DNA from: Bacteroidales bacterium
GTDB lineage: Bacteria > Bacteroidota > Bacteroidia > Bacteroidales > UBA932
Assembly: GCA_024689525.1 (NCBI GenBank)
Contig: JAILDI010000009.1
Location: 1-57,157, forward strand
DNA length: 57,157 nt
Reading direction: 5' to 3'
Positions 4,140 to 29,471 of this stretch are shown one piece after another. Each line of letters begins with the position of its first letter. Within the stretch, counting starts at the first letter, position 1. Made by a program: the position numbers and the translations under genes. The notes beneath the pieces are model-generated. The model saw only the letters and a program-made list of their open reading frames with translations, made no database searches and was not told where the DNA came from.

Positions 4140-4238
4140 TGGAGAAGTTGTGATTATATACGGGGGAACTTCTCCAGAACCCTTTGTGGAATAGCGATAT
4201 GTGGAGAAGTTCCCTTCCATAAAAACACAACTTCTCCA
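4140..4238. repeat. Two nested perfect inverted repeats between convergent genes
   Basis: Four GGAGAAGTT/AACTTCTCC arms lie in 99 bases. The outer pair TGGAGAAGTTGTG (4140-4152) and CACAACTTCTCCA (4226-4238) is a perfect 13-bp inverted repeat. The inner pair GGGAACTTCTCCA (4164-4176) and TGGAGAAGTTCCC (4202-4214) is another. Because the core is shared, arms 1+2 and 3+4 can also pair over about 10 bp, giving two alternative folds. It begins at the base after the restriction gene's stop codon and may act as a bidirectional terminator or be a small mobile palindrome. Confidence 0.6.
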
Positions 4239-4256
4239 TTAGAGGCATCCAAAGGC

Positions 4257-16194: not shown

Positions 16195-17496
16195 ATGAGT
16201 GCATCTTCCACCATGCTCCCTCCCCTTCCGGAAAGGATGAGGCCGTCGTCCCTGCAGGACTATGCAGGGCAGCGGCATCTTGTGGGCGAAGGCTGCATTC
16301 TGAGGAAGATGATCGAGAGCGGCAATCTGTCGTCCTTCATCCTGTGGGGCCCTCCCGGCGTTGGCAAGACCACCCTGGCACACATCATCGCCCAAACCAT
16401 GGACCGCGAGTTCTTCACTCTGTCGGCCGTTACCGCAGGAGTGAAGGATGTGCGTGAGGTGTTCGACCGTGCCAAGAGCAATTCGCTCTTCGGCGGAAAG
16501 GGTGCGCCCATTCTCTTTATCGACGAGATCCACCGCTTCAACAAGGCGCAGCAGGATGCGCTTCTGGGTGCAGTGGAAACGGGGACAATCGTCCTTGTGG
16601 GAGCCACCACGGAGAACCCCTCTTTCGAGGTGATCACTCCCCTCCTCTCCCGCTGCCAGGTATTTGTCCTGAAACCCCTTGAAAAGGCCGATCTGGAATT
16701 CCTCCTGCACCGTGCCTTGAAGGAGGATATCCTCCTGAAAACCAAGAATATAGAGCTTAAGGAAACCGAGGCGCTCCTGCGCTATAGCGGTGGCGATGCC
16801 CGCAGGCTCCTCAATGTGCTTGAAATAGTGGTCGATGCCCATTCGGCGGACTCCCCTATCGTCATCGACAATGAGTCGGTCGTGGCCTCCATTCAGGAGA
16901 ATATGGCCATCTATGACAAGGACGGTGAGATGCACTACGACATCATATCGGCCTTCATAAAGAGCATCCGCGGCTCGGATCCCAATGCAGCAATCTACTA
17001 TCTGGCCCGTATGATCGACGGCGGTGAGGATCCGCTGTTCATTGCACGGCGCTTGTGCATATCGGCCTCCGAAGATGTTGGCCTGGCAAATCCCAATGCA
17101 CTGCTGCTGGCAAATGCCTGCTTCGAGGTTGTATCCAAGATCGGAATGCCGGAAGGCCGCATTCCCCTGGCGGAAACCACGGTGTATCTGGCCTCATCGC
17201 CCAAGAGCAACGGCTCGTATATGGCAATCGAGAAGGCACTGGCAGAGGTTAAACAGTCCGGCAACCAGCCCGTCCCCCTGGCCATCCGCAACGCCCCCAC
17301 TTCCCTCATGCAGGAACTTGGCTACAGCGACGGCTACAAATACGCCCACGACTTCCCCGGCCACTTCGCCGACATGGAGTTCATGCCGGACGCCCTCCGC
17401 GGCACCGTCTTCTACGAGCCGCAGGAAAACAAGCACGAAAACGCCCTTCGCGCCTACCTCGAAGCCTGTTGGCCGAAATACTACCGCAAACCGTAA
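16195..17496 (+). CDS. rarA: Replication-associated recombination ATPase RarA (MgsA)
   Basis: RarA is a clamp-loader-like AAA+ ATPase acting at stalled replication forks with SSB. The 433-residue protein has LQDYAGQRHLVGEG, Walker A GPPGVGKTT, Walker B ILFIDEIHRFN, sensor 1 GATTENPSFEV, a sensor 2 GGDARRLLN and the C-terminal tetramerisation region (SDPNAAIYYLARMIDGGEDP, ending near GYKYAHDFPGHF). It follows the GNAT gene by 4 bases. The final codons CCG TAA lie in the end of a 107-bp palindromic element, so the stop codon is provided by the repeat. Confidence 0.92.
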   Translation: MSASSTMLPPLPERMRPSSLQDYAGQRHLVGEGCILRKMIESGNLSSFILWGPPGVGKTTLAHIIAQTMDREFFTLSAVTAGVKDVREVFDRAKSNSLFGGKGAPILFIDEIHRFNKAQQDALLGAVETGTIVLVGATTENPSFEVITPLLSRCQVFVLKPLEKADLEFLLHRALKEDILLKTKNIELKETEALLRYSGGDARRLLNVLEIVVDAHSADSPIVIDNESVVASIQENMAIYDKDGEMHYDIISAFIKSIRGSDPNAAIYYLARMIDGGEDPLFIARRLCISASEDVGLANPNALLLANACFEVVSKIGMPEGRIPLAETTVYLASSPKSNGSYMAIEKALAEVKQSGNQPVPLAIRNAPTSLMQELGYSDGYKYAHDFPGHFADMEFMPDALRGTVFYEPQENKHENALRAYLEACWPKYYRKP

Positions 17497-17598
17497 ACTG
17501 GAACTCGCTGATTATTAGCAATTTATAAAAAGTTAATGCGGCAAAATGCCTCATTAACTTTTTATATCTCATTGAGAATCAATCACATCCATTTTACG
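17492..17598. repeat. 107-bp full-length palindromic element, copy 1
   Basis: The element starts CGTAAACTG and ends TTTTACG, giving terminal CGTAAA/TTTACG inverted repeats. The two halves mirror each other imperfectly along the whole length and meet in a long central hairpin. The second copy (28883-28989) has the same length and about 80% identity by eye. The TAA at element positions 3-5 is the rarA stop codon. The right end lies one base from the last base of the tamL stop codon, so the element fills the whole convergent gap. Confidence 0.8.
17527..17563. terminator. Bidirectional terminator at the centre of element copy 1
   Basis: AAAAAGTTAATGCGGCA (17527-17543) pairs with TGCCTCATTAACTTTTT (17547-17563), with a single mismatch and a 3-base loop. 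The A-run and T-run at the two ends let it work as an intrinsic terminator on either strand, suiting the convergent rarA and tamL genes. Confidence 0.75.
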
Positions 17599-19782
17599 CT
17601 AGAAAGGATAGCCGACGCCGAAGTGGATGGCGTAGTTGCCGCGGCGGAGCCATTGGGTGGGGCCGAGCCAGCGGTCGCCCTCGGCGCGGGCGGGGTCGTG
17701 GACCTGCATGCCCATATCGACACGGACCAGGATGAAGTCGAGGTTGACGCGGAGGCCGATGCCCCAGTCCCCCGCTATGCTGGACAGGGCGAAGCGTTCT
17801 TCCTCGGGGGCGCCACCGTTGAGTGCCCAGATGTTGCCGGCGTCGGCAAAGAGGGCTCCTTCCACTTTCCAGAACAGGGGTGCGCGGAACTCCAGGTTGG
17901 CTTCCATCTTGAGGTCGCCCGTCTGGCTGGGAATGACGAAGATATCGTTAATCTGTGCGTGTCCCGGGCCGATGGTGCGTGCCTGCCAACCTCGCATGCT
18001 GGAGGCGCCGCCGCTGTAGAACTGCTTTTCGAATGGAAGCGTGGATGCGTTTCCGTAGGCATAGCCCACACCGGCAAGAAGGCGCATGGCTATTGCGTAT
18101 CGGTCTTTGTTTCCTGTGCGGATGGTGCGTCCCAGCTGGACCTCACCGCGGACGTACTGTGAGTACGGGGTTTGCCAGATGGTGTGCTGCCCCTGGTCGT
18201 TCGTGGGAAGAAGCGGGTTGAGAAGGCTTATGGCGTTGCCGGAAAGGTCGAACATAAGACGGTAGTAGTGATACGAGCCTGCGGGTACCGCCGATACGTC
18301 GGTGGTATAGTAGGCGATTCCGCCGATGCCCATATCGAAGTGGTCGCTATAGGCGTTCATCATAAAGCGGTCCGTGGCGATGCTCTTGGCGAAGTCGCTG
18401 CTGATGTTGAACAGGCGCACCACGTTGGCCTGCAGGGGGTACAACTGGTATGAGAACCGCCGGCCGCGGCCCAGGGTGCCGGTGTATCCGAATGCGCCGG
18501 AGATTATCGTACGGGCGTATTCCGGGCGGTCCTGGTAGCTGAAGGCCAGGGAGACGTCGGTCCTGGGGATGTTGTTGCCGCGGAAGATTCTGTTGGGCAG
18601 GCCTACGAACTTGGGGAAGCGTATGCTGGCCGATGTGCTGATTTCGTTGGATTTGACGTCGCTGTCCAGACGGAACTGATGGTTGCCCTTGACGGAAACG
18701 TTAAGGAGTTCGCCGCCGTGGAAAAGGTTCTTGTGGTAGTAGCTCACCTGTGGCGACAGGCCCAGCAGGCCGGTGGAGTTCACCGAGCCTTCGAAGTTGA
18801 TCTTGAAGCCCTGGAGACCGCTGTTGCGAAGGTTGATGTTGCAGTCCACGTGATCCTCTCCGGAGGGCTGAATGTCGATGTTGATGCCGTTGAACACCGT
18901 GAGGTTGGACAGGCGGTTGTACGTCATGTTCACACGCCTCTCGCTGTACAGCTGGCCGGGTTTGAGGATGTTCAGGTTCTCCAGCACCGAGGACCTGAAA
19001 GGAACGGATTCCGGGTAGCTGATGGTTACGTCGCCGATGGTGTATTTGCGGTGCTCCATTGCTTCCTGGGGCGTTCCGCTTCGGGGGTAGTCCAGGATGG
19101 ACATGGTGAGGATGGCATTGCCGTCCTGCCCCAGTGTATCCGCCTCGAAACTGTAATATGCCTTTGTGAAGCCATAATAGCCTATGTCGCGGAAGAACTG
19201 GGCGCTACGCACCGTCTCGTCTTCAAGGGCCGATTCCGACAGCCACGAGCCCACCTTGACGGTAGAACGGGAGTTGTTTACGTTGAAGTCCCTGGTGAAT
19301 GTGCCGTATGAGGGGACGTTGTAGTTGATTTCGCTAATCTTGTAGCGCTTGCCAAGCGTTACGTTGTAGGTGACATATGCCCTGCGGCCCTTAGTGGTGA
19401 CATCGGCCGTGACATCCGAGCCATACCAGCCGATGTACTCCAGATGGTTGCGCAGGTTGACTACGCTGGCATCCACCTGGGATTCGTCGAACACTACGGG
19501 AGCCTGGCCCAGTTTGCGGAGGAAGTTGGCGAACTTGCTGTCGCTGTTGCCGGCCCAGCCGTAGATGCTGAGGAACGGGTTCCAGCCGAAGATTATCGAC
19601 GAGTTGGGTTTCTGACGCAGATAAGGGCTGAGTTCGGAGTTGTCCACTCCCCTTCTGTCCACCTTGATGGTGTTCTTTGCGAGCCGGTACTCCCCTTCCT
19701 TGAGCGTACGCGTGGTGCTGCACCCCGCCGCCACTAAGGCGAGAAGCAATAATATAAATATGCCTTTGGAGCGCTGCATCAT
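17599..19782 (-). CDS. tamL: TamL-type BamA/TamA-family outer-membrane lipoprotein
   Basis: This 727-residue Omp85-family protein has a lipoprotein signal, MMQRSKGIFILLLLALVAAG, with the lipid Cys next, as in Bacteroidota TamL. POTRA-like repeats fill roughly residues 30-330 (RRAYVTYNVTLGKRYKISEI, HRKYTIGDVTISYPESVPF). A C-terminal 16-strand-type barrel contains the hallmark GGASSMRGWQARTIGPG and ends in HFGVGYPF. I chose the ATGATG at 19782/19779. A longer frame to 19959 would destroy the signal peptide and overlap the divergent methyltransferase gene. TamL is thought to work with TamB in lipid or protein traffic to the outer membrane; no tamB lies in this window. Confidence 0.85.
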   Translation of the reverse strand: MMQRSKGIFILLLLALVAAGCSTTRTLKEGEYRLAKNTIKVDRRGVDNSELSPYLRQKPNSSIIFGWNPFLSIYGWAGNSDSKFANFLRKLGQAPVVFDESQVDASVVNLRNHLEYIGWYGSDVTADVTTKGRRAYVTYNVTLGKRYKISEINYNVPSYGTFTRDFNVNNSRSTVKVGSWLSESALEDETVRSAQFFRDIGYYGFTKAYYSFEADTLGQDGNAILTMSILDYPRSGTPQEAMEHRKYTIGDVTISYPESVPFRSSVLENLNILKPGQLYSERRVNMTYNRLSNLTVFNGINIDIQPSGEDHVDCNINLRNSGLQGFKINFEGSVNSTGLLGLSPQVSYYHKNLFHGGELLNVSVKGNHQFRLDSDVKSNEISTSASIRFPKFVGLPNRIFRGNNIPRTDVSLAFSYQDRPEYARTIISGAFGYTGTLGRGRRFSYQLYPLQANVVRLFNISSDFAKSIATDRFMMNAYSDHFDMGIGGIAYYTTDVSAVPAGSYHYYRLMFDLSGNAISLLNPLLPTNDQGQHTIWQTPYSQYVRGEVQLGRTIRTGNKDRYAIAMRLLAGVGYAYGNASTLPFEKQFYSGGASSMRGWQARTIGPGHAQINDIFVIPSQTGDLKMEANLEFRAPLFWKVEGALFADAGNIWALNGGAPEEERFALSSIAGDWGIGLRVNLDFILVRVDMGMQVHDPARAEGDRWLGPTQWLRRGNYAIHFGVGYPF

Positions 19783-19783
19783 A

Positions 19784-19791
19784 CAAATATA
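19784..19791 (-). promoter_or_regulatory. tamL: -7 box for tamL
   Basis: The minus strand reads TATATTTG, one base, then ATGATG. Transcription starting 5-7 bases after the box would begin at or inside the first codons. So either the mRNA is leaderless from the second ATG, or the real start lies elsewhere. Confidence 0.45.
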
Positions 19792-19803
19792 AGAATTTGT
19801 CTT

Positions 19804-19811
19804 TATATTTG
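19804..19811 (+). promoter_or_regulatory. -7 box for the SpoU methyltransferase-rlmD unit
   Basis: TATATTTG lies 20 bases before ATG 19832, arranged divergently with the tamL box 12 bases away. Only the -7 elements are recognisable. Confidence 0.5.
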
Positions 19812-19831
19812 CAGTGAAAACAGTCATTTTT

Positions 19832-20569
19832 ATGCTTTCAGCCAAAGATATCAAGAGATTGCGGGCCCTGGGGCAGAAGAAGTTCCGGGACGAGGAAGGC
19901 GCGTTCGTGGTGGAGGGAGAGAAACTGGTGCGGGAGGCGAAGGAGTCGGGTTTCCACATTAGGGAATGCTACCGGATGGCCGATATCGGCGAGGCGGCGA
20001 TGGAGCGCATAAGTCAGCTGAGCTCGCCCTCGCCTGTGCTGGCGGTCGTGGAGAAGCCATCGGCCTGGGATGAAATGAAGGTCGATGCGCCCTCGGCGGG
20101 CCTCTACATCGCCCTGGACGGCATCCGCGACCCCGGCAATCTGGGCACGATCCTGCGCTGCGCCGACTGGTTTGGCGTCAGCGGCGTGTTCGCATCGGCC
20201 GATACCGTTGAAATCAGCAACCCCAAGGTGGTGCAGGCCACGATGGGAGCAATCTTCCGAGTGAAGTTCGCCAGGGCCGATATCCCCGCGCTGTGCCGCG
20301 CAACGCGCGCTGCGGGCGGCATCGTATATGGCACCTTTATGGACGGTGCCAATATATATAAGGAAGGGCTTCGCACCGGAGCCGACGGGCCAGTAGTCAT
20401 CGTTATCGGCAATGAGGCCAACGGCATATCGGCGGCAACCGCCGCCGAAGTATCGGCCCGCATAAGCATCCCCGCGTACGGCAACTCCGGAATGGAATCC
20501 CTGAATGCGGCGGTGGCTACTGCAATTACGTTATCTGAATTCAGAAGAAGATGTCAAGAAAACGAGTAG
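19832..20569 (+). CDS. TrmH/SpoU-family RNA 2'-O-methyltransferase
   Basis: This SAM-dependent SPOUT enzyme methylates ribose 2'-OH in rRNA or tRNA. The 245-residue protein has the small N-terminal substrate-binding domain (KDIKRLRALGQKKFRDEEGAFVVEGEKLV) and the knotted domain with motif 1 DPGNLGTILR, motif 2 VIGNEANGI and motif 3 SLNAAVATAI. ATG 19832 (MLSAKDIK) is chosen over the GTG at 19814, since homologues begin at the equivalent of MLSAKDI and the GTG sits only 2 bases from the promoter box. The target nucleoside cannot be told. It overlaps rlmD by 19 bases. Confidence 0.82.
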   Translation: MLSAKDIKRLRALGQKKFRDEEGAFVVEGEKLVREAKESGFHIRECYRMADIGEAAMERISQLSSPSPVLAVVEKPSAWDEMKVDAPSAGLYIALDGIRDPGNLGTILRCADWFGVSGVFASADTVEISNPKVVQATMGAIFRVKFARADIPALCRATRAAGGIVYGTFMDGANIYKEGLRTGADGPVVIVIGNEANGISAATAAEVSARISIPAYGNSGMESLNAAVATAITLSEFRRRCQENE

Positions 20570-21957
20570 ACCTTTTGTTGGAGAATATCCGGATCGAGGC
20601 CGTGGCGGCGGAGGGAAAGGCTCTGGCGCACGTGGACGGGATGGTTGTGTTCGTGGATTTCGCGGTGCCCGGGGATGTTGTGGATATTCAGGTGAGGAAG
20701 AAAAAGAAGAACTATATGGAGGGGCATATCGTGCGTATCGTAACGCCCTCCAGCGACAGGCTGCCTGCGTTCTGCCCTCATTTCGGGGTTTGCGGCGGTT
20801 GCCGGTGGCAGCCTCTCCCCTATCCGATGCAGCTGGCTGCAAAGCGCCAGCAGGTGGAGGACCAGCTGGTGCGCATCGGCCATCTTCAGGTGCCGGAAAT
20901 CAGGCCTACGCTGGCTTCCGACGACACGGAGTATTACCGCAATAAGCTGGAGTACAGCGCATCGGCCCGCAGATGGGTGCTGGACGGTGAGGATCCGGAG
21001 GCCATTCCGCCGGAGGACAGGCCGGGGCTGGGATTCCACGTGGGCAAGTTCTTCGACAAGGTGCTGGACATTAAGGAGTGCCACCTGCAAAGGGAACCTT
21101 CCAATGCTATAAGGCTGTTTATCAAGGACTTCTGTATCCGGAACGGCTATACGTTCTATAACATCAGGGAGAATCGCGGCTTCCTGCGCAATATATTCAT
21201 CCGCACGACGGAGGACGGGCAGGTGATGCTCATCCTTTGTATGGGGCAGGACGATAAGGCCCGCAGGGAGGCGCTGCTGGAGGCGATATCGACCCGATTC
21301 CCGGAGATTACGTCGTTCTACTATGTGGTGAATACGAAGCTGAACGACTCAATCACCGACCAGGAGCCGGTGCTTTACAAGGGCCGCGACGCCATTTTCG
21401 AGAGTATGGAGGGCCTCAGCTTCAAAATCGGCCCCAAGTCGTTCTACCAGACTAATTCCCGTCAGGCGGAGAAGCTGTATGGCGTGGCCCGCGAGTTCTC
21501 CCAACTTAAGGGCGATGAGGTGGTTTACGACCTTTACACAGGCACAGGCACCATCGCGCAGTTCGTGTCCAGGCGTTGCAGGAAGGTTATCGGCATTGAG
21601 TATGTGCCGGAGGCTATTGAGGATGCAAAGGACAATGCACGCCGCAACGGCATCGACAATTGCTCCTTCTTTGCCGGCGATATGAAGGATGTGCTCACGG
21701 CGGGATTCATCGCGGAGCACGGGCGGCCGGACGTGATTATCCTGGATCCGCCGCGCGCGGGAATTCATCCGGACGTTGCCCAGGTGATCCTGGACGCGGA
21801 GCCGCAGCGCATCGTCTATGTGAGCTGCAATCCCGCCTCGCAGGCGCGCGACCTGGCCATATTAAACAAGAAGTACCGCATCACTGCGGTACAACCTGTT
21901 GATATGTTCCCCCACACAATGCACGTGGAGAACGTGTGTGCCCTGGAGCGCTTATAG
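20551..21957 (+). CDS. rlmD: 23S rRNA (uracil-5-)-methyltransferase, RlmD/RumA type
   Basis: This enzyme makes 5-methyluridine in 23S rRNA (U1939 in E. coli). The 468-residue protein has an N-terminal TRAM domain, a 4Fe-4S cluster motif CPHFGVCGGC plus the distal Cys in IKECHL, the SAM site DLYTGTGTIAQF, the catalytic-base region LDPPRAGIHP, and the nucleophile Cys in YVSCNPASQARDL. It overlaps the upstream methyltransferase by 19 bases and the end of the convergent M6 protease gene by 6 bases. Bacteroidota often carry several RumA-like paralogues, so the exact target is less certain than the family. Confidence 0.85.
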   Translation: MSRKRVDLLLENIRIEAVAAEGKALAHVDGMVVFVDFAVPGDVVDIQVRKKKKNYMEGHIVRIVTPSSDRLPAFCPHFGVCGGCRWQPLPYPMQLAAKRQQVEDQLVRIGHLQVPEIRPTLASDDTEYYRNKLEYSASARRWVLDGEDPEAIPPEDRPGLGFHVGKFFDKVLDIKECHLQREPSNAIRLFIKDFCIRNGYTFYNIRENRGFLRNIFIRTTEDGQVMLILCMGQDDKARREALLEAISTRFPEITSFYYVVNTKLNDSITDQEPVLYKGRDAIFESMEGLSFKIGPKSFYQTNSRQAEKLYGVAREFSQLKGDEVVYDLYTGTGTIAQFVSRRCRKVIGIEYVPEAIEDAKDNARRNGIDNCSFFAGDMKDVLTAGFIAEHGRPDVIILDPPRAGIHPDVAQVILDAEPQRIVYVSCNPASQARDLAILNKKYRITAVQPVDMFPHTMHVENVCALERL

Positions 21958-24582
21958 TACTTCCATTTCCAGTTCAATTGTTTCGTCGGAACCGTCACTG
22001 TAGTAGAGGGTTGCGCGAAGCGTGTGATTACCCCTGGTGAGGACGATGCTGTCCGTTCCCACTTCCAGTCCGTCAAGTGTCCAGATGATGTTCGACGGAT
22101 TGCTGTTCGCGGCGGTATTAACCTTAAGCGGAAGCTCAGCTCCTGCTGTGAATTCGAAATCCTTGGGCACACTGATGTAGTTGAATCCCGCAGTTGTGAT
22201 GTAGTCCGTTTCCTCTTCCGGAGGAGTTACGGTACCCGGGTCGCCGTCGGGAACCACCTTAGCAGAAAGCGCGAGGTCGAAATAACCGGAACTGCTGCTA
22301 AGGGCGGACCAGTCGGATGAAGTCAGATTCAGGAGGGCGTAATAAGTGTAGTGGAAAGTACTCGACTGGATGCATCCGAAGGGATATCCGTTCTCCGGAG
22401 TCTTCATACCATAACCTATGTACACGTCCTGGTTCTGAGGAATATGCAGATTCTTGCTTTCCAGCGAAACAGTTAAAGGATTTCCATCAAAAGTAGGACT
22501 CGGAACTTCATATGTCAGAGCCCTTGTGGTACCGAAATCGATAATGATGTAGAGTTTGCTGGCAGAGCAGGTGGGAAGGATAGTGACCTCCTTGATCAGG
22601 TTGCCCACATAGGAAGTGAGTTCCGAAGCCTGGAAGCGTACGGCCATCATCAATTCGTTTGAGACATCTCCGGTTCCAAGGCCTAAGACACTACCGTTGG
22701 GATCAAACTTGTACAAATCGGCAGCTACGGATTCACCCTCCTTGTAGAGGACGAAATTCACAACATTGCCTTTGGTTTTCAGCGTAATCGTCTTGGAATT
22801 GTCCAGATAGCCGTCCAACGTGGCCGATACCTCCACCGTAGTGGCGGTGCAGTCCTGAAGGTCGATTTCATAACGGCCCTGGGCATCCGTCTGGGCGGTA
22901 TACTGGGCTCCAGCCGTAGCTTCCCTTATGGATATGATCCGGACTTTGCCGTGGGAAACGATATTATTCTGACCGGAGGGAACGACACTGATTGTAACCC
23001 CCTGGAGAGGATTGCCGGAAGAGTCGGTAACAGTTCCGCTTACTCCCTTTGTGTTGGAAACGGTTGCGGTGAACGTGGCATTTCCGGATGAGAATGCAAT
23101 GGATGAAAGCTGCACCGATGTCTCGTTGCCGTCCCAATCTATCGGCTGGTATGAGGTATTCCTGGAGCGTCCGGGGAATATGACGTCATTGTCGTCTTTA
23201 TAACCGTAATCGTAGCCGGAAAGATAAAGGGAAGTAGGGTCGCTGGAAGGAATGATGTAGAAGCATGGATGATCACCCCATGCATTGATGGAGTTTGTTC
23301 CCGTCCAGTTGCTCCATAATTCATAAGGAGTATAATAGCCGCCCACTTTCCTGCTTGTGGATTTGTCCACGTGGTAGATGACAAGGCCGGTGGGCAGCGG
23401 TGCGTCCCAGCCATGACCGTCCCTGGCTTCGAAGTAGAAATACTCCCCTTCCGTGTCAGTGGAGGCTTTGTAAGCTAAATTGTTGTTGACGCTGCTCAAC
23501 GAGTACTGGCCGGATTGGGTGACTTCGGTCATGGCCGAACTGTCGATCCATCCCAGTATCATCCTTTCTTCGATGTTGAAATATGGCGGAGTGCGGCCTT
23601 CGTTGTTGTATCCGCCGCCGCACATCGGGGAAAAGTCGAACAGGGCTGATGCCTCTTCATTTTCCTCGTAGTCTGTGTCGTAGAAATCCGGAAGGCCCAT
23701 TGCGTGGCCGAATTCGTGGCAGGCAGTGCCGATTCCGCACATCTTGCCGGCGAGGGCGCCATAATTCACTATTTCATTGGAACAGGCATACCTGTCTATC
23801 CTTTTTCCTCCGAGAGTCAGACTTATGCGTGCGTTGGAAAGCTCCCACTGATGCGGCCAGATGCAGTTTGTGCCGCCACCGTCGGCTTCTCCCTTGCCGG
23901 CATAGTACATGAACACAAGGTCCACCTCGCCGTCATTGTCGTTGTCATATTTGGAAAAGTCGATCTGATCTGCCAGGCCTTCGCATCCTTCCTTTACGGC
24001 AAGATGGGGATTTTTGTCGGAGCCCTGCTGGGTAGTCTCATTCCCGCCGTAATAGGCCTGTGTCTTGGTGAGCGTTACAGGACCGTAGACATCAAAGACA
24101 GGCTCGAACAAGCCACATGAATTTTCGTAGTAGAAGTCCCTGGCCGATCCGGTTGCACCATTGTCGCTATAGCCATTCTGGTTCATCATATTGGTGAAAT
24201 CCTGATTCGCTGTGCTGCTCTTGAAGTGGACATCGCTGAATTCCACCAGGATAACGAGGAAGTGTTTCTGGCCGATGGCAATCGGAGCTTCGCCGGACTG
24301 CGCCCTTGCCGCATTGACAGCTGCGCGGCGCTGTGCACCAAGCCTGCGCCTGGACTGGAGGGTGTACTGCGAGACCGGATAGTAATAACCGTCGTCTCCA
24401 AGTTCGATGACTCTGCCGGAGGCATCGGTCACCCAGTTGAAGAATTCGTCTCCGTGCATGCGGATCTGGATGACGCTGCCGTCGGGGAGTGTATAGGGAA
24501 CCAGTCCCCTGTATGCCGGAACGGCTCCCAGTTGGAGGCTCGCTGCAAGAAGCAGGGCCACGATGATGAGAATCTTTTTCAT
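21952..24582 (-). CDS. Secreted M6-family metalloprotease with C-terminal beta domains
   Basis: This 876-residue exported zinc protease resembles immune inhibitor A. The signal peptide is MKKILIIVALLLAASLQLGA. The peptidase domain spans about 100-420, with HEFGH at 289-293 (zinc ligands and catalytic Glu), then AMGLPDFYD, and a calcium-type DNDNDGEVD loop at 213-221. After it come a carboxypeptidase-regulatory-like beta domain (VSGTVTDSSGNPLQGVTISV, about 545-650) and a further sandwich domain. The C-terminus (ELEMEVL) does not look like a type IX sorting domain. It lies 3 bases after a BACON lipoprotein gene, so the two are co-expressed. A role in breaking down host or dietary protein is an inference. 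Confidence 0.82.
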   Translation of the reverse strand: MKKILIIVALLLAASLQLGAVPAYRGLVPYTLPDGSVIQIRMHGDEFFNWVTDASGRVIELGDDGYYYPVSQYTLQSRRRLGAQRRAAVNAARAQSGEAPIAIGQKHFLVILVEFSDVHFKSSTANQDFTNMMNQNGYSDNGATGSARDFYYENSCGLFEPVFDVYGPVTLTKTQAYYGGNETTQQGSDKNPHLAVKEGCEGLADQIDFSKYDNDNDGEVDLVFMYYAGKGEADGGGTNCIWPHQWELSNARISLTLGGKRIDRYACSNEIVNYGALAGKMCGIGTACHEFGHAMGLPDFYDTDYEENEEASALFDFSPMCGGGYNNEGRTPPYFNIEERMILGWIDSSAMTEVTQSGQYSLSSVNNNLAYKASTDTEGEYFYFEARDGHGWDAPLPTGLVIYHVDKSTSRKVGGYYTPYELWSNWTGTNSINAWGDHPCFYIIPSSDPTSLYLSGYDYGYKDDNDVIFPGRSRNTSYQPIDWDGNETSVQLSSIAFSSGNATFTATVSNTKGVSGTVTDSSGNPLQGVTISVVPSGQNNIVSHGKVRIISIREATAGAQYTAQTDAQGRYEIDLQDCTATTVEVSATLDGYLDNSKTITLKTKGNVVNFVLYKEGESVAADLYKFDPNGSVLGLGTGDVSNELMMAVRFQASELTSYVGNLIKEVTILPTCSASKLYIIIDFGTTRALTYEVPSPTFDGNPLTVSLESKNLHIPQNQDVYIGYGMKTPENGYPFGCIQSSTFHYTYYALLNLTSSDWSALSSSSGYFDLALSAKVVPDGDPGTVTPPEEETDYITTAGFNYISVPKDFEFTAGAELPLKVNTAANSNPSNIIWTLDGLEVGTDSIVLTRGNHTLRATLYYSDGSDETIELEMEVL

Positions 24583-24585
24583 AGT

Positions 24586-25797
24586 CTACTGCTTCTTGAG
24601 GATGAAATATGTATTGGTGGAATTCTTCAGCCAGATCAGTTTGTCGCTCTCCCCTACCACTTTTACCTGGACTGGCTGCGAAAGCGCCTTCTGGCCATCC
24701 TGCCAGGCTGAAAGCGTAAGATTGAGAATGTCTCCCATATTGAGGGAAACCGGAACGCCTTTAAGTTCCAGGACCAGGCTGGTATTCGTAAAGATGAGGC
24801 GGAAACTCCTGCCGCTGGCGTTGGTGAGGCGGCTGGTCTGGCTCTGGCCCTTAATGTAAACATAGTCGGAGCCGATACCGTAGAAGCCGGGAGTGGTGAT
24901 GTCCAGGATGGCTTCCCTTGCCTCCTGTTTGACTGTTACGGTTTCGATGATGTCGCCGTAGCGGAAGGTGATGTGGCCAGTGCGGCTGACGGAGCTCATA
25001 TTTTCATCAGCGCTGAAATATTCGTCGAATTCCAGGAGGGCGCGGGTGCCAAGCACGTGAAGCCACTCGGCATCGGAAGATACGGTATACTCCACGTTTG
25101 TGCGGGTGTGGATCTTGAACTGGCCGCCCTGCGATTCCAGGTTTACGCCTTTGCTCTCCACGATGACGGTTTCTGTTATGATCTGCCGTACAGGAAGCGT
25201 CAGGCTGAGGCCGCCCAGCTTGAATGTTACGCTGCCTTCGCGCTGCTCAGTGTTGCGGTTGTCCTCGTTGGCCGTGAACGTGACGACGTTGCCGGTGGAG
25301 TAACTGTCCGGGCTGACGGTGAACCAGTCACCCCTCTGCTCCACAGTCCAGGCTCCCTTGGAGTTGAACTTGTATTGAACGGGAAGGGTGCTGTAAAGCT
25401 CGATTGCGTCCGTGTCGATAAGGGAACTCACGCTGTTCTGCACGATGGCTATCTTGCGGGTTTCGGTACCGGAGATTACAATCAGCGAGTCCGTGCGGGA
25501 CTCCATGCTGCTATTGGCCTGGACGCGGAATGTGAGGCTGGTTGTGAATTCATTATAGTAGCTCTGTTCACCCAGAGTGCACCAGCTGCCGTCTTTGAGG
25601 GTGGCGTACCAGAGAAGGTCCGATGAGATGTATACGACCTGCTCCTGTGACTCCGGCCCAACTTCGAGCCTTTCCGTATTCTGGTTGACTATGAACAGGG
25701 AAGGCGTCGTGGGCTGATAAATCTGGATTCCCCAGTCGCAGGAGGATACCAAAATCCCGGCTGCGAACAGGATTGCCAGATAAAAATATCTTCTCAT
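24586..25797 (-). CDS. Surface lipoprotein with BACON-like repeats
   Basis: This 403-residue lipoprotein starts MRRYFYLAILFAAGILVSSC, with the lipid Cys at residue 20. At least three Ig-like BACON-type repeats follow, each with the typical pattern of a W in an Ala/Ser-x-W strand, then a run of polar residues and a closing V-x-Q strand (KGAWTVEQRGDWFTVSP...LPVRQ; NVEYTVSSDAEWLHVLG...VTVKQ). BACON domains are adhesive or carbohydrate/mucin-associated modules in gut Bacteroidota. It is first in a two-gene unit with the M6 protease and may anchor or assist it; that link is inferred from operon context only. Confidence 0.75.
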   Translation of the reverse strand: MRRYFYLAILFAAGILVSSCDWGIQIYQPTTPSLFIVNQNTERLEVGPESQEQVVYISSDLLWYATLKDGSWCTLGEQSYYNEFTTSLTFRVQANSSMESRTDSLIVISGTETRKIAIVQNSVSSLIDTDAIELYSTLPVQYKFNSKGAWTVEQRGDWFTVSPDSYSTGNVVTFTANEDNRNTEQREGSVTFKLGGLSLTLPVRQIITETVIVESKGVNLESQGGQFKIHTRTNVEYTVSSDAEWLHVLGTRALLEFDEYFSADENMSSVSRTGHITFRYGDIIETVTVKQEAREAILDITTPGFYGIGSDYVYIKGQSQTSRLTNASGRSFRLIFTNTSLVLELKGVPVSLNMGDILNLTLSAWQDGQKALSQPVQVKVVGESDKLIWLKNSTNTYFILKKQ

Positions 25798-25824
25798 ACG
25801 CGGATTTTTTTTGTGTATACCTTA

Positions 25825-25832
25825 CAAATATA
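25825..25832 (-). promoter_or_regulatory. -7 box for the BACON lipoprotein-M6 protease unit
   Basis: Minus-strand TATATTTG (plus-strand CAAATATA), 27 bases before the ATG at 25797. Confidence 0.5.
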
Positions 25833-25844
25833 CCTATAATTTCT

Positions 25845-25852
25845 TAATTTTG
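25845..25852 (+). promoter_or_regulatory. -7 box for the CaCA exchanger operon
   Basis: TAATTTTG lies 19 bases before ATG 25872, divergent from the box at 25825-25832. Confidence 0.45.
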
Positions 25853-25871
25853 TAATCATAATAGGTATAAT

Positions 25872-26810
25872 ATGTCTTTCTTGGTAATAGTTTGGTTAAT
25901 CGTCGGCCTTGCCCTGATAGTGTTGGGGGCTGATTCTCTGGTAGATGGATCCTCGTCCATCGCACGCCGCCTCCGGGTGAGTGAATTCGTCATCGGCCTC
26001 ACTATCGTGGGTATGGGTACATCGGCCCCGGAAATGGTTGTCAGCTGGCTTGGAGCCATCAGGGGCAATGCCGATATCGCCCTTGGCAACGTGCTGGGCT
26101 CGAACATTTTCAACACGCTCCTCATTCTGGGCCTCACGGCCATCATCCTGCCCATCGGCATAACCGACAGCAACAAGAGGCTGGACATTCCGATGAACAT
26201 CTTCGTCACGGCGATGTTCATTGTTTTCGGCCTCATCGACGGTGTGTTCTCCAGGTTCGACGGCGCCCTTTTCCTGGCCCTTTTTGCCGGGTATATGTGG
26301 CTGAGCTTCAGGAATCAGGGAAAGCATACGGACGATGAACCGGAGGTCGATGGCATCCCGGTATGGCGGGCCGTGCTGATGGTCCTGCTGGGCCTCGGCG
26401 GTCTGATCGTGGGCGGCCGCCTGTTCGTGAACAATGCCACCGTAATTGCCCAGACGCTGGGCGTGAGCGACAAGTTCATCGCCATCACCCTGCTTGCCGG
26501 CGGCACTTCCCTGCCGGAGCTGGCAACCTGCGTTGTTGCCGCTGCCAAGAAGAAGGGTGCGCTGGCCCTCGGCAACATCATCGGCTCCAACCTGTTCAAC
26601 CTGCTTCTCATCGTGGGCGGCTCGGCTCTTATCCATCCGCTCGCCTTCGGCGGGTTCACTATCGTCGACCTGGCTGTGCTGGCGCTCAGCGCAGTGGCGC
26701 TGTTCACATCGGCCTTTGTCGGCAAGAAAGACAAGATCGACCGGTTGGACGGCTCCCTGTTCCTGTTCATCTGGATCATGTATATGGTTTATCTCGTAAT
26801 CAATATCTGA
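25872..26810 (+). CDS. Calcium/sodium antiporter (CaCA family, YrbG-like)
   Basis: This inner-membrane cation exchanger has 312 residues and about ten membrane segments in two inverted repeats. Each repeat holds the signature alpha motif: GLTIVGMGTSAPEMVVS followed by ALGNVLGSNIFNTLLILG, and AITLLAGGTSLPELATC followed by ALGNIIGSNLFNLLLIVG. The acidic residues (APE, LPE) are those that bind the transported cation in the family. It begins a three-gene operon with an MscS channel (1 base apart) and an acyltransferase, suggesting a membrane or ionic-stress theme. Confidence 0.88.
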   Translation: MSFLVIVWLIVGLALIVLGADSLVDGSSSIARRLRVSEFVIGLTIVGMGTSAPEMVVSWLGAIRGNADIALGNVLGSNIFNTLLILGLTAIILPIGITDSNKRLDIPMNIFVTAMFIVFGLIDGVFSRFDGALFLALFAGYMWLSFRNQGKHTDDEPEVDGIPVWRAVLMVLLGLGGLIVGGRLFVNNATVIAQTLGVSDKFIAITLLAGGTSLPELATCVVAAAKKKGALALGNIIGSNLFNLLLIVGGSALIHPLAFGGFTIVDLAVLALSAVALFTSAFVGKKDKIDRLDGSLFLFIWIMYMVYLVINI

Positions 26811-26811
26811 T

Positions 26812-27705
26812 ATGCTTCTCCTACAGACAGATACCACTGCCGTGAAGGCACGCGCCGTCCTTGAGACCATCAAGGAGACTCCAGCGGACGAGTTGCTTAA
26901 GGAACTTGGCGTGCAGGCATTGCATTTCGGCCTCAAGCTCCTGGCCGCCTTGGCGCTGTTCATCATCGGCGCGTGGCTCATCAAGCTGGTGAGGCGTGCG
27001 GTGAAGAAGGTGCTCATCAGGAAGAATTCCGAGCATACAATCATTTCCTTTACGGACAGTTTCACCGCCGTGGGCCTGTGGACTCTGCTGATCGTCCTGA
27101 GTATCGGAGTCCTGGGCATCAACACCACTTCCCTGGCTGCCCTGCTGGCTGCCGGCGGTATGGCCATCGGCATGGCCCTGAGCGGCACTCTGCAGAACTT
27201 TGCAGGCGGGGTTATGCTGCTGGTATTCAAGCCTTTCCGCGCGGGCGATTTCATCGAGGCCCTTGGCTATATGGGCACCGTCAGCGCAATCAATATCGTG
27301 AATACGATGCTTGTCACCACCGACAACCGCGTAATCGTAATCCCCAACGGGGCCCTGTCCAACGCCAACATCAACAACATTAGCGCCAACGCGGTGAGGA
27401 GGGTCGATATCAATGTCGATGTGGCCTACGGGTCGGACCTGGATGCGGTTAAATCGGCCCTTCTGGAGATTGCTTCTTCCTGCCCCGGCGTGCTGGATGC
27501 GAAGACTCCCCTCTGCGCAGATCCGTTTGCCGGCCTCACCTCCCTGAAAGACAGTAGCGTCCAGTTCGTGCTTCGCCTGTGGGTGAAGACCACCGACTAC
27601 TGGCCTGCCTGGTTCTACCTTAACGAAACCGTTTACAGGGAGCTGCCCGCCAAGTATGGCATCCAGTTCCCGTTCCCTCAGATGGACGTTCACCTGATTA
27701 AGTAA
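26812..27705 (+). CDS. Small-conductance mechanosensitive channel (MscS family)
   Basis: This 297-residue inner-membrane channel releases solutes on hypo-osmotic shock. Three membrane segments cover residues 35-125. The pore-lining TM3 has the Gly/Ala-rich pattern (SLAALLAAGGMAIGMALSGTLQNFAGGVMLL), followed by KPFRAGDFIEALGYMGTV and VIVIPNGALSNANINN in the cytoplasmic beta domain. Length and motif order match minimal MscS. It sits between the exchanger and an acyltransferase, 6 bases before the latter. Confidence 0.88.
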   Translation: MLLLQTDTTAVKARAVLETIKETPADELLKELGVQALHFGLKLLAALALFIIGAWLIKLVRRAVKKVLIRKNSEHTIISFTDSFTAVGLWTLLIVLSIGVLGINTTSLAALLAAGGMAIGMALSGTLQNFAGGVMLLVFKPFRAGDFIEALGYMGTVSAINIVNTMLVTTDNRVIVIPNGALSNANINNISANAVRRVDINVDVAYGSDLDAVKSALLEIASSCPGVLDAKTPLCADPFAGLTSLKDSSVQFVLRLWVKTTDYWPAWFYLNETVYRELPAKYGIQFPFPQMDVHLIK

Positions 27706-27711
27706 CATGTT

Positions 27712-28887
27712 ATGGATCTGAAACCTTTTTCCGACATAGCCCCGTATACCGACGAAGAAGCGGCCGCCGCAATGTCGCGGATTGCAAACCACCCCAATGT
27801 TCCCTGGGTATCCAAGTTCATCTTCCCCAACAGGAAGGAAACCTATCTGCGTGATATCCTCCGTGAAATCAAGACCGTTGACGAATTCCAGTCCAAGGTG
27901 ATGTCGGAGGCCATCGAGTGGGTTATCGCCAACACGGTGCACAACTTCTCCTATGACGGCCTGTCCAAGATCCAGGCGCTGGACAGCACCTTCCTGGCGA
28001 TGTCCAATCACAGGGACATCATCCTGGACCCGGCTTTCACGCAGATTATCCTGTACCGCAACAAGATGCCTCTCACTCAGATTGCCGTGGGCGACAATCT
28101 TCTGAAGAGCAAGGCGGTGGAACTGCTAATCCGCTCCAACCGTATGATCAAGGTGATCCGCGGGGTATCGGCCCGTGAACTGTACCTGTCGTCAAAAGTG
28201 CTCTCGGAGTATATCCGTGAAACCATTGTCAGCGGCACCGGTTCGGTGTGGATTGCGCAGCGTCAGGGGCGCACCAAAGACGGCCTGGACGTCACTGAGC
28301 AGGGCCTTCTGAAGATGTTCGACATGAGCGGCGGAGACGATTTCGTTCACAACTTCATGGAACTGAACATAGTTCCCCTTTCCATATCCTACGAGTTCGA
28401 ACCGTGCGATATCCTGAAGGCACGCGAAAAGCTGATCTCACGTACTCAGAAGTACGAAAAGACGGAGAACGAAGACCTCCAGAGCATCCTCGTGGGCATC
28501 AAGCAGTGGAAAGGCAACGTTCACCTGAATATCGGCGATCCCCTTAGCGAAGACGAAATCCGCGAGGCGGCGTCTTATGACAAGAACGAGCGTTACCAGA
28601 AGATCCGCCAGGCCGTTGACCGCCGCATCATCAGCGGCTACCGTCTGTGGAAAACGAACTACATGGCGTACGACATCGTGGAAAACACCACCCGCTTCGC
28701 CGACCGCTACTCCCTTTCCGAGTTGGAAGCGTTCAAATCCTACATCGCCCACCAGCTCGAGTACGCAGAACCCGAACTCAACCGCGACGACCTCCGCGAC
28801 ATTCTCCTCCGCATCTACTCCAACCCCGTCGCCGCCAAACTGGACCTCGCCGCCCGCGACTCCGCCCCTGCGGCCTCCGAAGCGTAA
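27712..28887 (+). CDS. Phospholipid/glycerol acyltransferase (PlsC-like)
   Basis: This 391-residue protein carries the acyltransferase motif I SNHRDIILD (NH-x4-D type) and a later AQRQGRTKDG, which fills the place of the EGTRS/FPEG-like motif III; it ends in a helical region. It probably acylates lysophosphatidate or another lipid at the inner membrane, but no membrane segment is obvious and the substrate is unknown. It is the last gene of the exchanger-MscS operon. Its last codon GCG and the TAA stop are formed by the start of the second 107-bp palindromic element, in the same codon phase as at rarA, so the native C-terminus may have been altered. Confidence 0.75.
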   Translation: MDLKPFSDIAPYTDEEAAAAMSRIANHPNVPWVSKFIFPNRKETYLRDILREIKTVDEFQSKVMSEAIEWVIANTVHNFSYDGLSKIQALDSTFLAMSNHRDIILDPAFTQIILYRNKMPLTQIAVGDNLLKSKAVELLIRSNRMIKVIRGVSARELYLSSKVLSEYIRETIVSGTGSVWIAQRQGRTKDGLDVTEQGLLKMFDMSGGDDFVHNFMELNIVPLSISYEFEPCDILKAREKLISRTQKYEKTENEDLQSILVGIKQWKGNVHLNIGDPLSEDEIREAASYDKNERYQKIRQAVDRRIISGYRLWKTNYMAYDIVENTTRFADRYSLSELEAFKSYIAHQLEYAEPELNRDDLRDILLRIYSNPVAAKLDLAARDSAPAASEA

Positions 28888-28989
28888 ACTGCAACTCGCT
28901 GCGAATCAGCGATTTGTAAAAATTAAATGCGGCATCTTGCCGCATTAAATTTTTGTATCTCATTGTGTATCAATCATATCCACTTTACG
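28883..28989. repeat. 107-bp full-length palindromic element, copy 2
   Basis: It has the same length and ends (CGTAAACTG...CTTTACG) as copy 1 at 17492-17598. The TAA at element positions 3-5 is the acyltransferase stop codon. The central hairpin (28918-28934 with 28938-28954) keeps pairing despite sequence change. The pair G17532-C17558 of copy 1 is T28923-A28949 here, a compensatory double change. Confidence 0.8.
28918..28954. terminator. Terminator hairpin in element copy 2
   Basis: AAAAATTAAATGCGGCA pairs with TGCCGCATTAAATTTTT around a 3-base loop with one mismatch. It would end the exchanger-MscS-acyltransferase transcript. Confidence 0.75.
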
Positions 28990-29277: not shown

Positions 29278-29471
29278 AGACTTTTGGCTGAAAGGAGAAG
29301 ATGTGTGGTGTCCGGGGACGTGTCCACCCCCGGACACGGGCAGGGGGAGGGGCCCGTTGGATACAAGTTCTTGCCTCGGCAAGGACGCAGTAGACAATGG
29401 GAGGGGCCGGAGTGGAGCGAAGCGGAACGGAGTTCCCCGGACACCACACATCTTCTCCCAGACAAAAGTCT
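29278..29471. repeat. Long inverted repeat with perfect 25-bp arms
   Basis: The arms are 29294-29318 (GGAGAAGATGTGTGG...) and 29434-29458, perfect reverse complements over 25 bp. A further 9-bp outer pair follows: AGACTTTTG (29278-29286) with CAAAAGTCT (29463-29471). The 115-bp interior is GC-rich and holds GTGTCC/GGACAC and CTTGCC/GGCAAG hairpins. It looks like a non-autonomous mobile element or a large RNA fold; no transposase is present. Confidence 0.65.

Follow-up and report, generated by a model that had tools for sequence, protein, structure and literature searches.

REPIN-like palindromes with a terminator-like core, associated with a RAYT family in a Cryptobacteroides-like Bacteroidales genus

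The closest described relatives of the two palindromes analysed here, which lie in a 57,157-nucleotide stretch of Bacteroidales DNA (contig JAILDI010000009.1; the whole stretch is called the window), are repetitive extragenic palindromic (REP) sequences and their inverted doublets, the REPINs. In the REPIN/RAYT systems of Pseudomonas fluorescens SBW25 and E. coli, as in the family described below, inverted arms enclose a diverse spacer in extragenic DNA, an adjacent Y1/HUH transposase with a Y---NP motif (RAYT, REP-associated Y1 transposase) is matched to the repeat type; for the known systems a clover-leaf fold has also been discussed (PMC3116915, PMC8049555, PMC8266576). REPs reach more than 100 copies (PMC2817692), REPIN spacers are called 'highly diverse' (PMC8049555), RAYT-repeat coevolution is known (PMC3116915, PMC6006769), and Y---NP is the context of class-2 Y1 enzymes (PMC6006769). 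REPs lie near gene 3' ends with a bias towards convergent and tandem genes, and the termini of GTAG REPs can supply stop codons (PMC3733652), while E. coli REPs are found within 15 nt of stop codons (PMC12306157). The window palindromes, each of 107 bp, occupy positions 17492-17598 and 28883-28989. With a probability of roughly 85%, we read them as non-autonomous REPIN-like elements of a RAYT family that is nearly confined to this genus in the genomes sampled.

The window protein encoded at 20551-21957, presumably RlmD-like, is nearest, at 80%, to proteins of Bacteroidales and Candidatus Cryptobacteroides assemblies, and 400 genomes of the nearest genus (Cryptobacteroides-like Bacteroidales) were surveyed. 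With copy 2 as query, matches at E <= 0.01 were obtained in 15 of these genomes. When both outer boxes were searched for as one pattern, with 70-100 nt between them, 50 of the 400 were matched, at no more than 22 places per genome, with 0 in the control results shown; the matches listed, which are the first places of each genome, span 106-110 bp. The original prediction, which treated a lack of other copies in a genome-wide search as fatal, therefore survives on this point. From the fetched loci we took 103 distinct elements, and the same scan of base-shuffled loci gave 0 in 961,357 bases. Lengths are tightly grouped: the 107 elements in genome-assigned loci measure 108 (59), 107 (44), 106 (3) and 110 bp (1). 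Within 246.5 kb of filling stretches of genome G006 there are three elements, some already known beforehand. A blastn search of both copies against 80 RlmD loci returned the window itself as the sole match, and a phage search with the copies found nothing at E <= 1. In plasmids there were four partial matches (best E 0.3), which were taken as chance. At one locus (L133, contig C14 of genome G268), identical elements at 2715-2822 and 6063-6170 stand 3.3 kb apart between partly duplicated neighbours, and a 136-aa and a 307-aa open reading frame (ORF) there have a stretch in common, which points to duplication or recombination involving the elements.

The anatomy was read from a hand-picked and hand-oriented alignment of 47 elements (A2). 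Each arm runs through a 12-nt outer box CGTRAAATGNAA, a CTGA-N3-TCAG motif and an inner box TTAC-NN-AAAA to the core, after which the mirror image follows; the elements thus have the two inverted arms and variable spacer of a REPIN. The core hairpin differs wholly in sequence between species with its pairing kept, and in 12 of 12 core pairs both sides have changed. Core and outer stems together reach a covariation score of 0.534; shuffles give 0.157, with none of 500 as high, and slid partners 0.086-0.133. For the R at position 4, the two ends are complementary to each other in 45 of the 47. The core hairpin is thus under structural selection. An intrinsic terminator would have a GC-rich stem and a T-tract behind it; in 64 of 107 elements, four or more T stand among the 7 nt beyond the stem on each strand, and the core is a candidate bidirectional terminator. 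The elements of genome G082 (L092, L108, L223-L225) form a subfamily with an imperfectly palindromic core (GAACACCCGAAA versus CAAGGTCAGCTA), nearly alike across the five copies read; perhaps it is a recent burst of a variant without the strong terminator stem.

The link to a transposase came from two G006 elements that bracket a gene missing from that place in G268. This gene is a RAYT. A close homologue (P0015) bears the source annotation 'REP element-mobilizing transposase RayT'. Among 68 homologues H60, H62 and Y120 are invariant, and N124 and P125 are conserved in at least 90%, giving a HUH motif and a single catalytic Tyr in the Y---NP context. The structural model, whose comparison barely covered the protein beyond residue 226, has a predicted Y1/HUH fold with TnpA-REP as its best match among solved structures; the protein is about 310 aa in length, with a long C-terminal part that is mostly helical by prediction. 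REP_Tyr_transpos of NCBIfam is the best match in four of four RAYTs, at 20.9-36.3 bits, and its equivalog cut-off of 80 bits is reached by none of them. Given these scores, what we claim is a divergent subclass of the fold family and not an equivalog of REP_Tyr_transpos. Homologues at E <= 1e-15 were found in 241 of the 400 genus genomes versus 3 in a sample of 295 genomes from the order (G239, whose element is discussed below, is among the three); in the genomes sampled, the RAYT family is nearly confined to this genus.

We examined 70 RAYT loci, namely 30 obtained as loci in the homologue search and a selection of 40 from the other places listed for element-positive genomes. An element lies within 600 bp in 50 of them (27/30 and 23/40), against 2 of 51 rarA and acyl control loci. 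On the 5' side it stands 61-198 nt upstream in 34 of 34 cases; for 3'-side elements the median distance is 13 nt. As in a REPtron, the RAYT is flanked by its repeats and further copies are dispersed elsewhere. RAYT homologues are present in 47 of the 50 element-positive genomes and in 194 of the other 350. Of the 25 closest RAYT pairs, 23 have at least one flank in common, and hence RAYTs look mostly vertically inherited. It should also be noted that the RAYT and both its elements moving as one block was rejected, as the borders of the G006/G268 difference do not coincide with the elements.

Elements beside other RAYTs follow the same plan with other boxes (CGTCGAATGGAA, CGTTTTTGCTAA, CGTGTTTCGTAA, CGTGGCACTTAA, GCTGGCACATAA). 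Agreement over six box bases is 0.81 for two elements of one RAYT (20 loci) and 0.47 between RAYTs, and RAYT identity correlates with box similarity (r 0.319; 0 of 2000 permutations as high). For a test across genomes, 16 with a CGTNGAATGG-like RAYT box were set against 18 with other boxes on the RAYTs seen. The pattern CGTNGAAYGG was present in 14 of the 16 and in 0 of the 18; when copies beside the defining RAYT are excluded, by reading of coordinates, it is present in 11 of the 16. The CGTTTTNG pattern was found in all three predicted genomes, in G148 and G300 besides, and in 0 of the other 29; in G148, a further RAYT adjoins a CGTTTTNG-type copy. The outer box beside a RAYT thus predicts which genomes hold copies with that box.

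We propose that the RAYT would bind both arms on single-stranded DNA, nick them, and copy the element into new intergenic places. The element's own bidirectional intrinsic terminator would end transcripts in either orientation, and insertions would survive mainly just behind stop codons because this terminator is carried along. A gene left without a stop of its own at such a place, by loss or otherwise, would use the TRA or TAA that happens to be present in this version of the outer box.

The window copies and their neighbours are as follows.

17492-17598, no strand: element copy 1, a 107-bp REPIN-like palindrome occupying the gap between rarA and a convergent Omp85-family gene
17492-17503, + strand: left outer box of copy 1, CGTAAACTGGAA, whose TAA at 17494-17496 is the rarA stop
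17524-17566, no strand: central terminator-like hairpin of copy 1 (A-tract, stem, T-tract), from the RNA fold and core columns
17587-17598, - strand: right outer box of copy 1, CGTAAAATGGAT on the - strand
28883-28989, no strand: element copy 2, 107 bp
28883-28894, + strand: left outer box of copy 2, CGTAAACTGCAA, whose TAA at 28885-28887 ends the ORF 27712-28887
28926-28946, no strand: central hairpin of copy 2, terminator-like on both strands in a simple terminator scan
28978-28989, - strand: right outer box of copy 2, CGTAAAGTGGAT on the - strand
16195-17496, + strand: rarA/mgsA, host gene of copy 1 (Pfam MgsA_C, AAA)
17599-19959, - strand: Omp85-family gene converging on copy 1, its stop (17599-17601) abutting the element (Pfam, scanned over 17602-19782)
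27712-28887, + strand: host gene of copy 2, with no Pfam match at 1e-3

Much of what was first claimed for these copies is borne out: their coordinates and 107-bp length are exact, and an identity put at about 80% comes to 82%, without gaps. They had been called full-length palindromes, and 71% (copy 1) and 64% (copy 2) of positions do pair, the arms of copy 1 (17492-17543 and 17547-17598) being 73% complementary. As RNA, the top strands fold at -34.5 and -30.7 kcal/mol (z -8.0 and -5.2), and 0 of 200 shuffles of either copy fold as low. The TAA in CGTAAA indeed ends the upstream ORF in both copies (16195-17496 and 27712-28887), entered in the same phase as NCG-TAA, and the compensatory base pair is recovered in core columns 41/68 of A2, G-C in copy 1 and T-A in copy 2. 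As for the bidirectional terminator hairpin, the simple scan lists that of copy 2 on both strands and copy 1 on neither, the copy 1 hairpin having 19 pairs with one internal mismatch. Pfam upholds the name RarA/MgsA for the first host gene but gives none for the supposed acyltransferase. Rfam at gathering scores finds 0 families in the whole window.

Two further repeats of the window are recorded here. Between converging genes at 4137-4241 lies another imperfect palindrome, of 105 bp with 40-nt arms that are 83% complementary; it is made of TGGAGAAGTT repeats, has unrelated boxes and is undetected by the element-family scan. In the long intergenic region downstream of copy 2 there is a perfect 25-bp inverted repeat (29294-29318 and 29434-29458), its arms 115 bp apart.

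Gene context was assigned with a codon-based gene caller of our own. Of the 103 elements, 41 have convergent, 38 tandem and 12 divergent genes on their two sides, 9 are at contig edges and 3 overlap called genes. Gene 3' ends facing an element (127) stand at a median distance of 17 nt, and 5' ends (47) at 130 nt. Elements occupy 39 of 73 convergent gaps, 38 of 359 tandem gaps and 12 of 55 divergent gaps, figures that are meaningful only as a comparison between classes, as the loci were selected around elements. Among the 127 facing genes, 15 end at the box TRA (element positions 3-5) and 5 at the next TAA (positions 10-12), these 20 being included in the 27 that end anywhere inside the element. 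The idea of a portable stop cassette is not supported by this tally, in which no more than 20 of the 127 genes facing an element use its conserved stops; stop-codon supply is a frequent by-product of the elements, not their purpose.

Most orthologous sites are empty. Among 26 element-bearing genomes compared at rarA, the site is occupied in G205 alone (the locus L244, counted in the 26, breaks off short of the gene's 3' end), and the second-gene site is occupied in 1 of 25 (G239; two partial or paralogous acyl loci, L206 and L207, were left out). G205, about 96% identical to the window in both proteins, has the rarA-site element and lacks the other. The orthologous copy 2 of G239 follows a stop that belongs to the gene itself (TAATCAG), while the window gene has no such stop; hence, use of the element stop changed within the clade. 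Genes without an element end normally. The finding named in advance as counting against a stop-and-terminate cassette, that distant relatives keep the gene ends but have unrelated terminators there, is largely what we see, most relatives being without the element. In some relatives the empty rarA site is a tail-to-tail gene overlap, which leaves the exact junction ambiguous, and no duplication is claimed there. Across 57 copies (box score >= 17, palindromy >= 0.38; L016, L047 and L078 left out as chance), no target-site duplication was seen: flanks are identical over 2 nt in 5, 3 nt in 0 and 4 nt in 1. The base before CGT is G or C at 107 of 114 ends and may belong to the cleavage site. By box type, C or G stands there in 78-92% of ends in every type, mostly with G or A before it, and there is no excess identity between the bases flanking the two element ends. 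The outer box as a guide pairing with the target flank was rejected, the flanking bases being alike for all box types.

The core turns over. Core stem identity is 0.642 within genomes versus 0.348 between them (0 of 1000 permutations; L132 omitted from the per-genome counts), and that of variable arm positions 0.446 versus 0.384. At the site held in common with G239, the arms are 0.79 and 0.86 identical and the surrounding DNA 85%, the core stem only 0.4-0.5; at rarA, window and G205 agree at 0.64 in the arms and 0.5 in the core. Among three G006-G268 pairs, the core is replaced in the first (0.4-0.5), the second is intermediate (0.6-0.7) and the third nearly identical throughout. At some sites, then, the core is replaced faster than its surroundings with pairing kept, as seen in five pairs, a small number. 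The turnover probably reflects exchange among copies. We tentatively suggest, as a possibility we rather doubt ourselves, a REPIN type that carries its own two-way terminator and has as exchangeable modules the six-base outer code, which the cognate RAYT would read, and the wholesale-swapped core, orthologs keeping their arms and taking the species' current core; the swap among one genome's copies would perhaps occur by RAYT strand exchange.

Three other explanations were weighed. The elements might be domesticated MITEs (miniature inverted-repeat transposable elements), as first proposed, retained to supply stops and terminators to host genes. The use of TAA in both window copies, the 15 and 5 of 127 genes ending at the box TRA and TAA, and the selection apparent on the core hairpin would all fit. 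But the other 107 of the 127 facing genes have their ends elsewhere, occupancy differs between close species, and outer boxes such as CGTCGAATGG and CGTTTTTGC have no stop at that place; moreover, 38 of 103 copies passed the both-arm scan despite a position between tandem genes, in which one of the arms has no 3' end to face. We consider this explanation unlikely. What stands of it is a dispersed, mobile-looking miniature element with a terminator-like selected core at gene 3' ends; the domesticated stop-and-terminate cassette is not supported, and the label MITE fits less well than a REPIN-like element of a RAYT, no target-site duplication being seen. That same lack in 57 copies speaks against a classical MITE of a DDE-transposase insertion sequence with terminal inverted repeats, for which the conserved inverted ends, fixed length, dispersed copies and empty sites could otherwise be cited. 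The gene between paired elements encodes a Y1/HUH RAYT (DDE genes with these ends were not searched for), and such a MITE is barely credible here. Finally, bidirectional terminators or protein-binding chromosome sites that are lineage-specific and non-mobile, maintained by descent and made uniform through gene conversion, would account for the convergent bias (39/73 gaps against 38/359 and 12/55) and for cores that are alike within genomes and unlike between them. Neither empty orthologous sites nor a box type that tracks the RAYT is expected of them, and we judge them highly improbable. Integron sites of the attC type were set aside, as the copies are dispersed at unrelated genes and paired with RAYTs.

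Several points weigh against the REPIN-like, RAYT-associated reading. The GT[AG]G foot of a REP arm is absent, most elements having CGT-N6-NAA instead. The CTGA-N3-TCAG side motifs show no covariation in A2 (72.1% paired versus 72.4% in shuffles), so that they are conserved as sequence and recognition of side hairpins is unsupported; a clover-leaf RNA as the selected form was rejected on the same test. Given both deficits, the elements are a variant and not canonical REPINs. With the strict pattern, 1-5 copies are counted in most positive genomes and 22 in the richest, which places copy number below the more than 100 of REPs (PMC2817692). No element lies within 600 bp of 20 of the 70 RAYT loci, though a few of these 20 are cut by contig ends; three of the 50 element-positive genomes (G053, G285, G357) have no RAYT match, and most element-negative genomes (194 of 350) do have one, partly with other boxes. 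Box types were assigned by eye; three of the 14 hits (G008, G171, G015) are only copies beside the set-defining RAYT, and G300 holds one CGTTTT copy without explanation. Furthermore, the gene caller is home-made, and the RAYT evidence comes from related genomes, the window's own genome lying outside the RAYT search.

Compared with described systems, the family differs in having no GTAG foot, a terminator-like core, an exchangeable outer code and a long, near-genus-confined RAYT. Unlike in REPIN/RAYT systems, the foot is neither GTAG nor GTGG, six central bases of a 12-nt outer box vary with the RAYT, covariation is absent from the side motifs and present in the spacer, a terminator-like hairpin, copies are fewer, and the RAYT has about 310 aa and a long, mostly helical C-terminal part by prediction. 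ERIC, Correia/NEMIS and RUP are intergenic palindromes or MITEs of about 100-130 bp, their known helpers being DDE-type transposases with TA duplications; by these features they are unlike the present elements, which have a Y1 transposase and no duplication. TIRtrons resemble the family in that RAYT-type (TIRYT) genes stand between inverted repeats that are not related to GTAG REPs and of which some have dispersed copies in moderate abundance (PMC3733652); here, however, a whole 107/108-bp palindrome of fixed length with a terminator-like core flanks the gene, not one arm of a terminal inverted repeat. TnpA-REP subclass 2.6 is likewise from Bacteroidetes, with 'atypical secondary structures' that flank the gene and recur in the genome, but its proteins are described with 179 aa and NH[LIV]H, whereas the RAYT here, of about 310 aa, has DHVH and YVGNNP; a large C-terminal domain is reported for subclasses 2.1 and 2.3, which are without REPs (PMC6006769). 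A search on Bacteroidetes palindromic repeats, REPIN, RAYT, REPtron, TIRtron and Cryptobacteroides found, among the papers listed, no title or abstract describing this family, in a coverage with few subscription journals and no bioRxiv.

We predict for the window genome a RAYT that has CGTAAACTG/CGTAAAATG elements on its flanks, their core resembling TTAATGCGGCA. If the proposed reading is true, it would give a simple reason for repeats gathering at gene ends, the terminator being brought along with the repeat. The many RAYT/box pairs within one genus would be a natural set for learning how RAYTs read their repeats, and the fast turnover of cores at fixed sites a measurable trace of copy-to-copy exchange. 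For annotation, the elements would account for certain unusual C-termini and terminators in this genus, which is represented here by metagenome assemblies.
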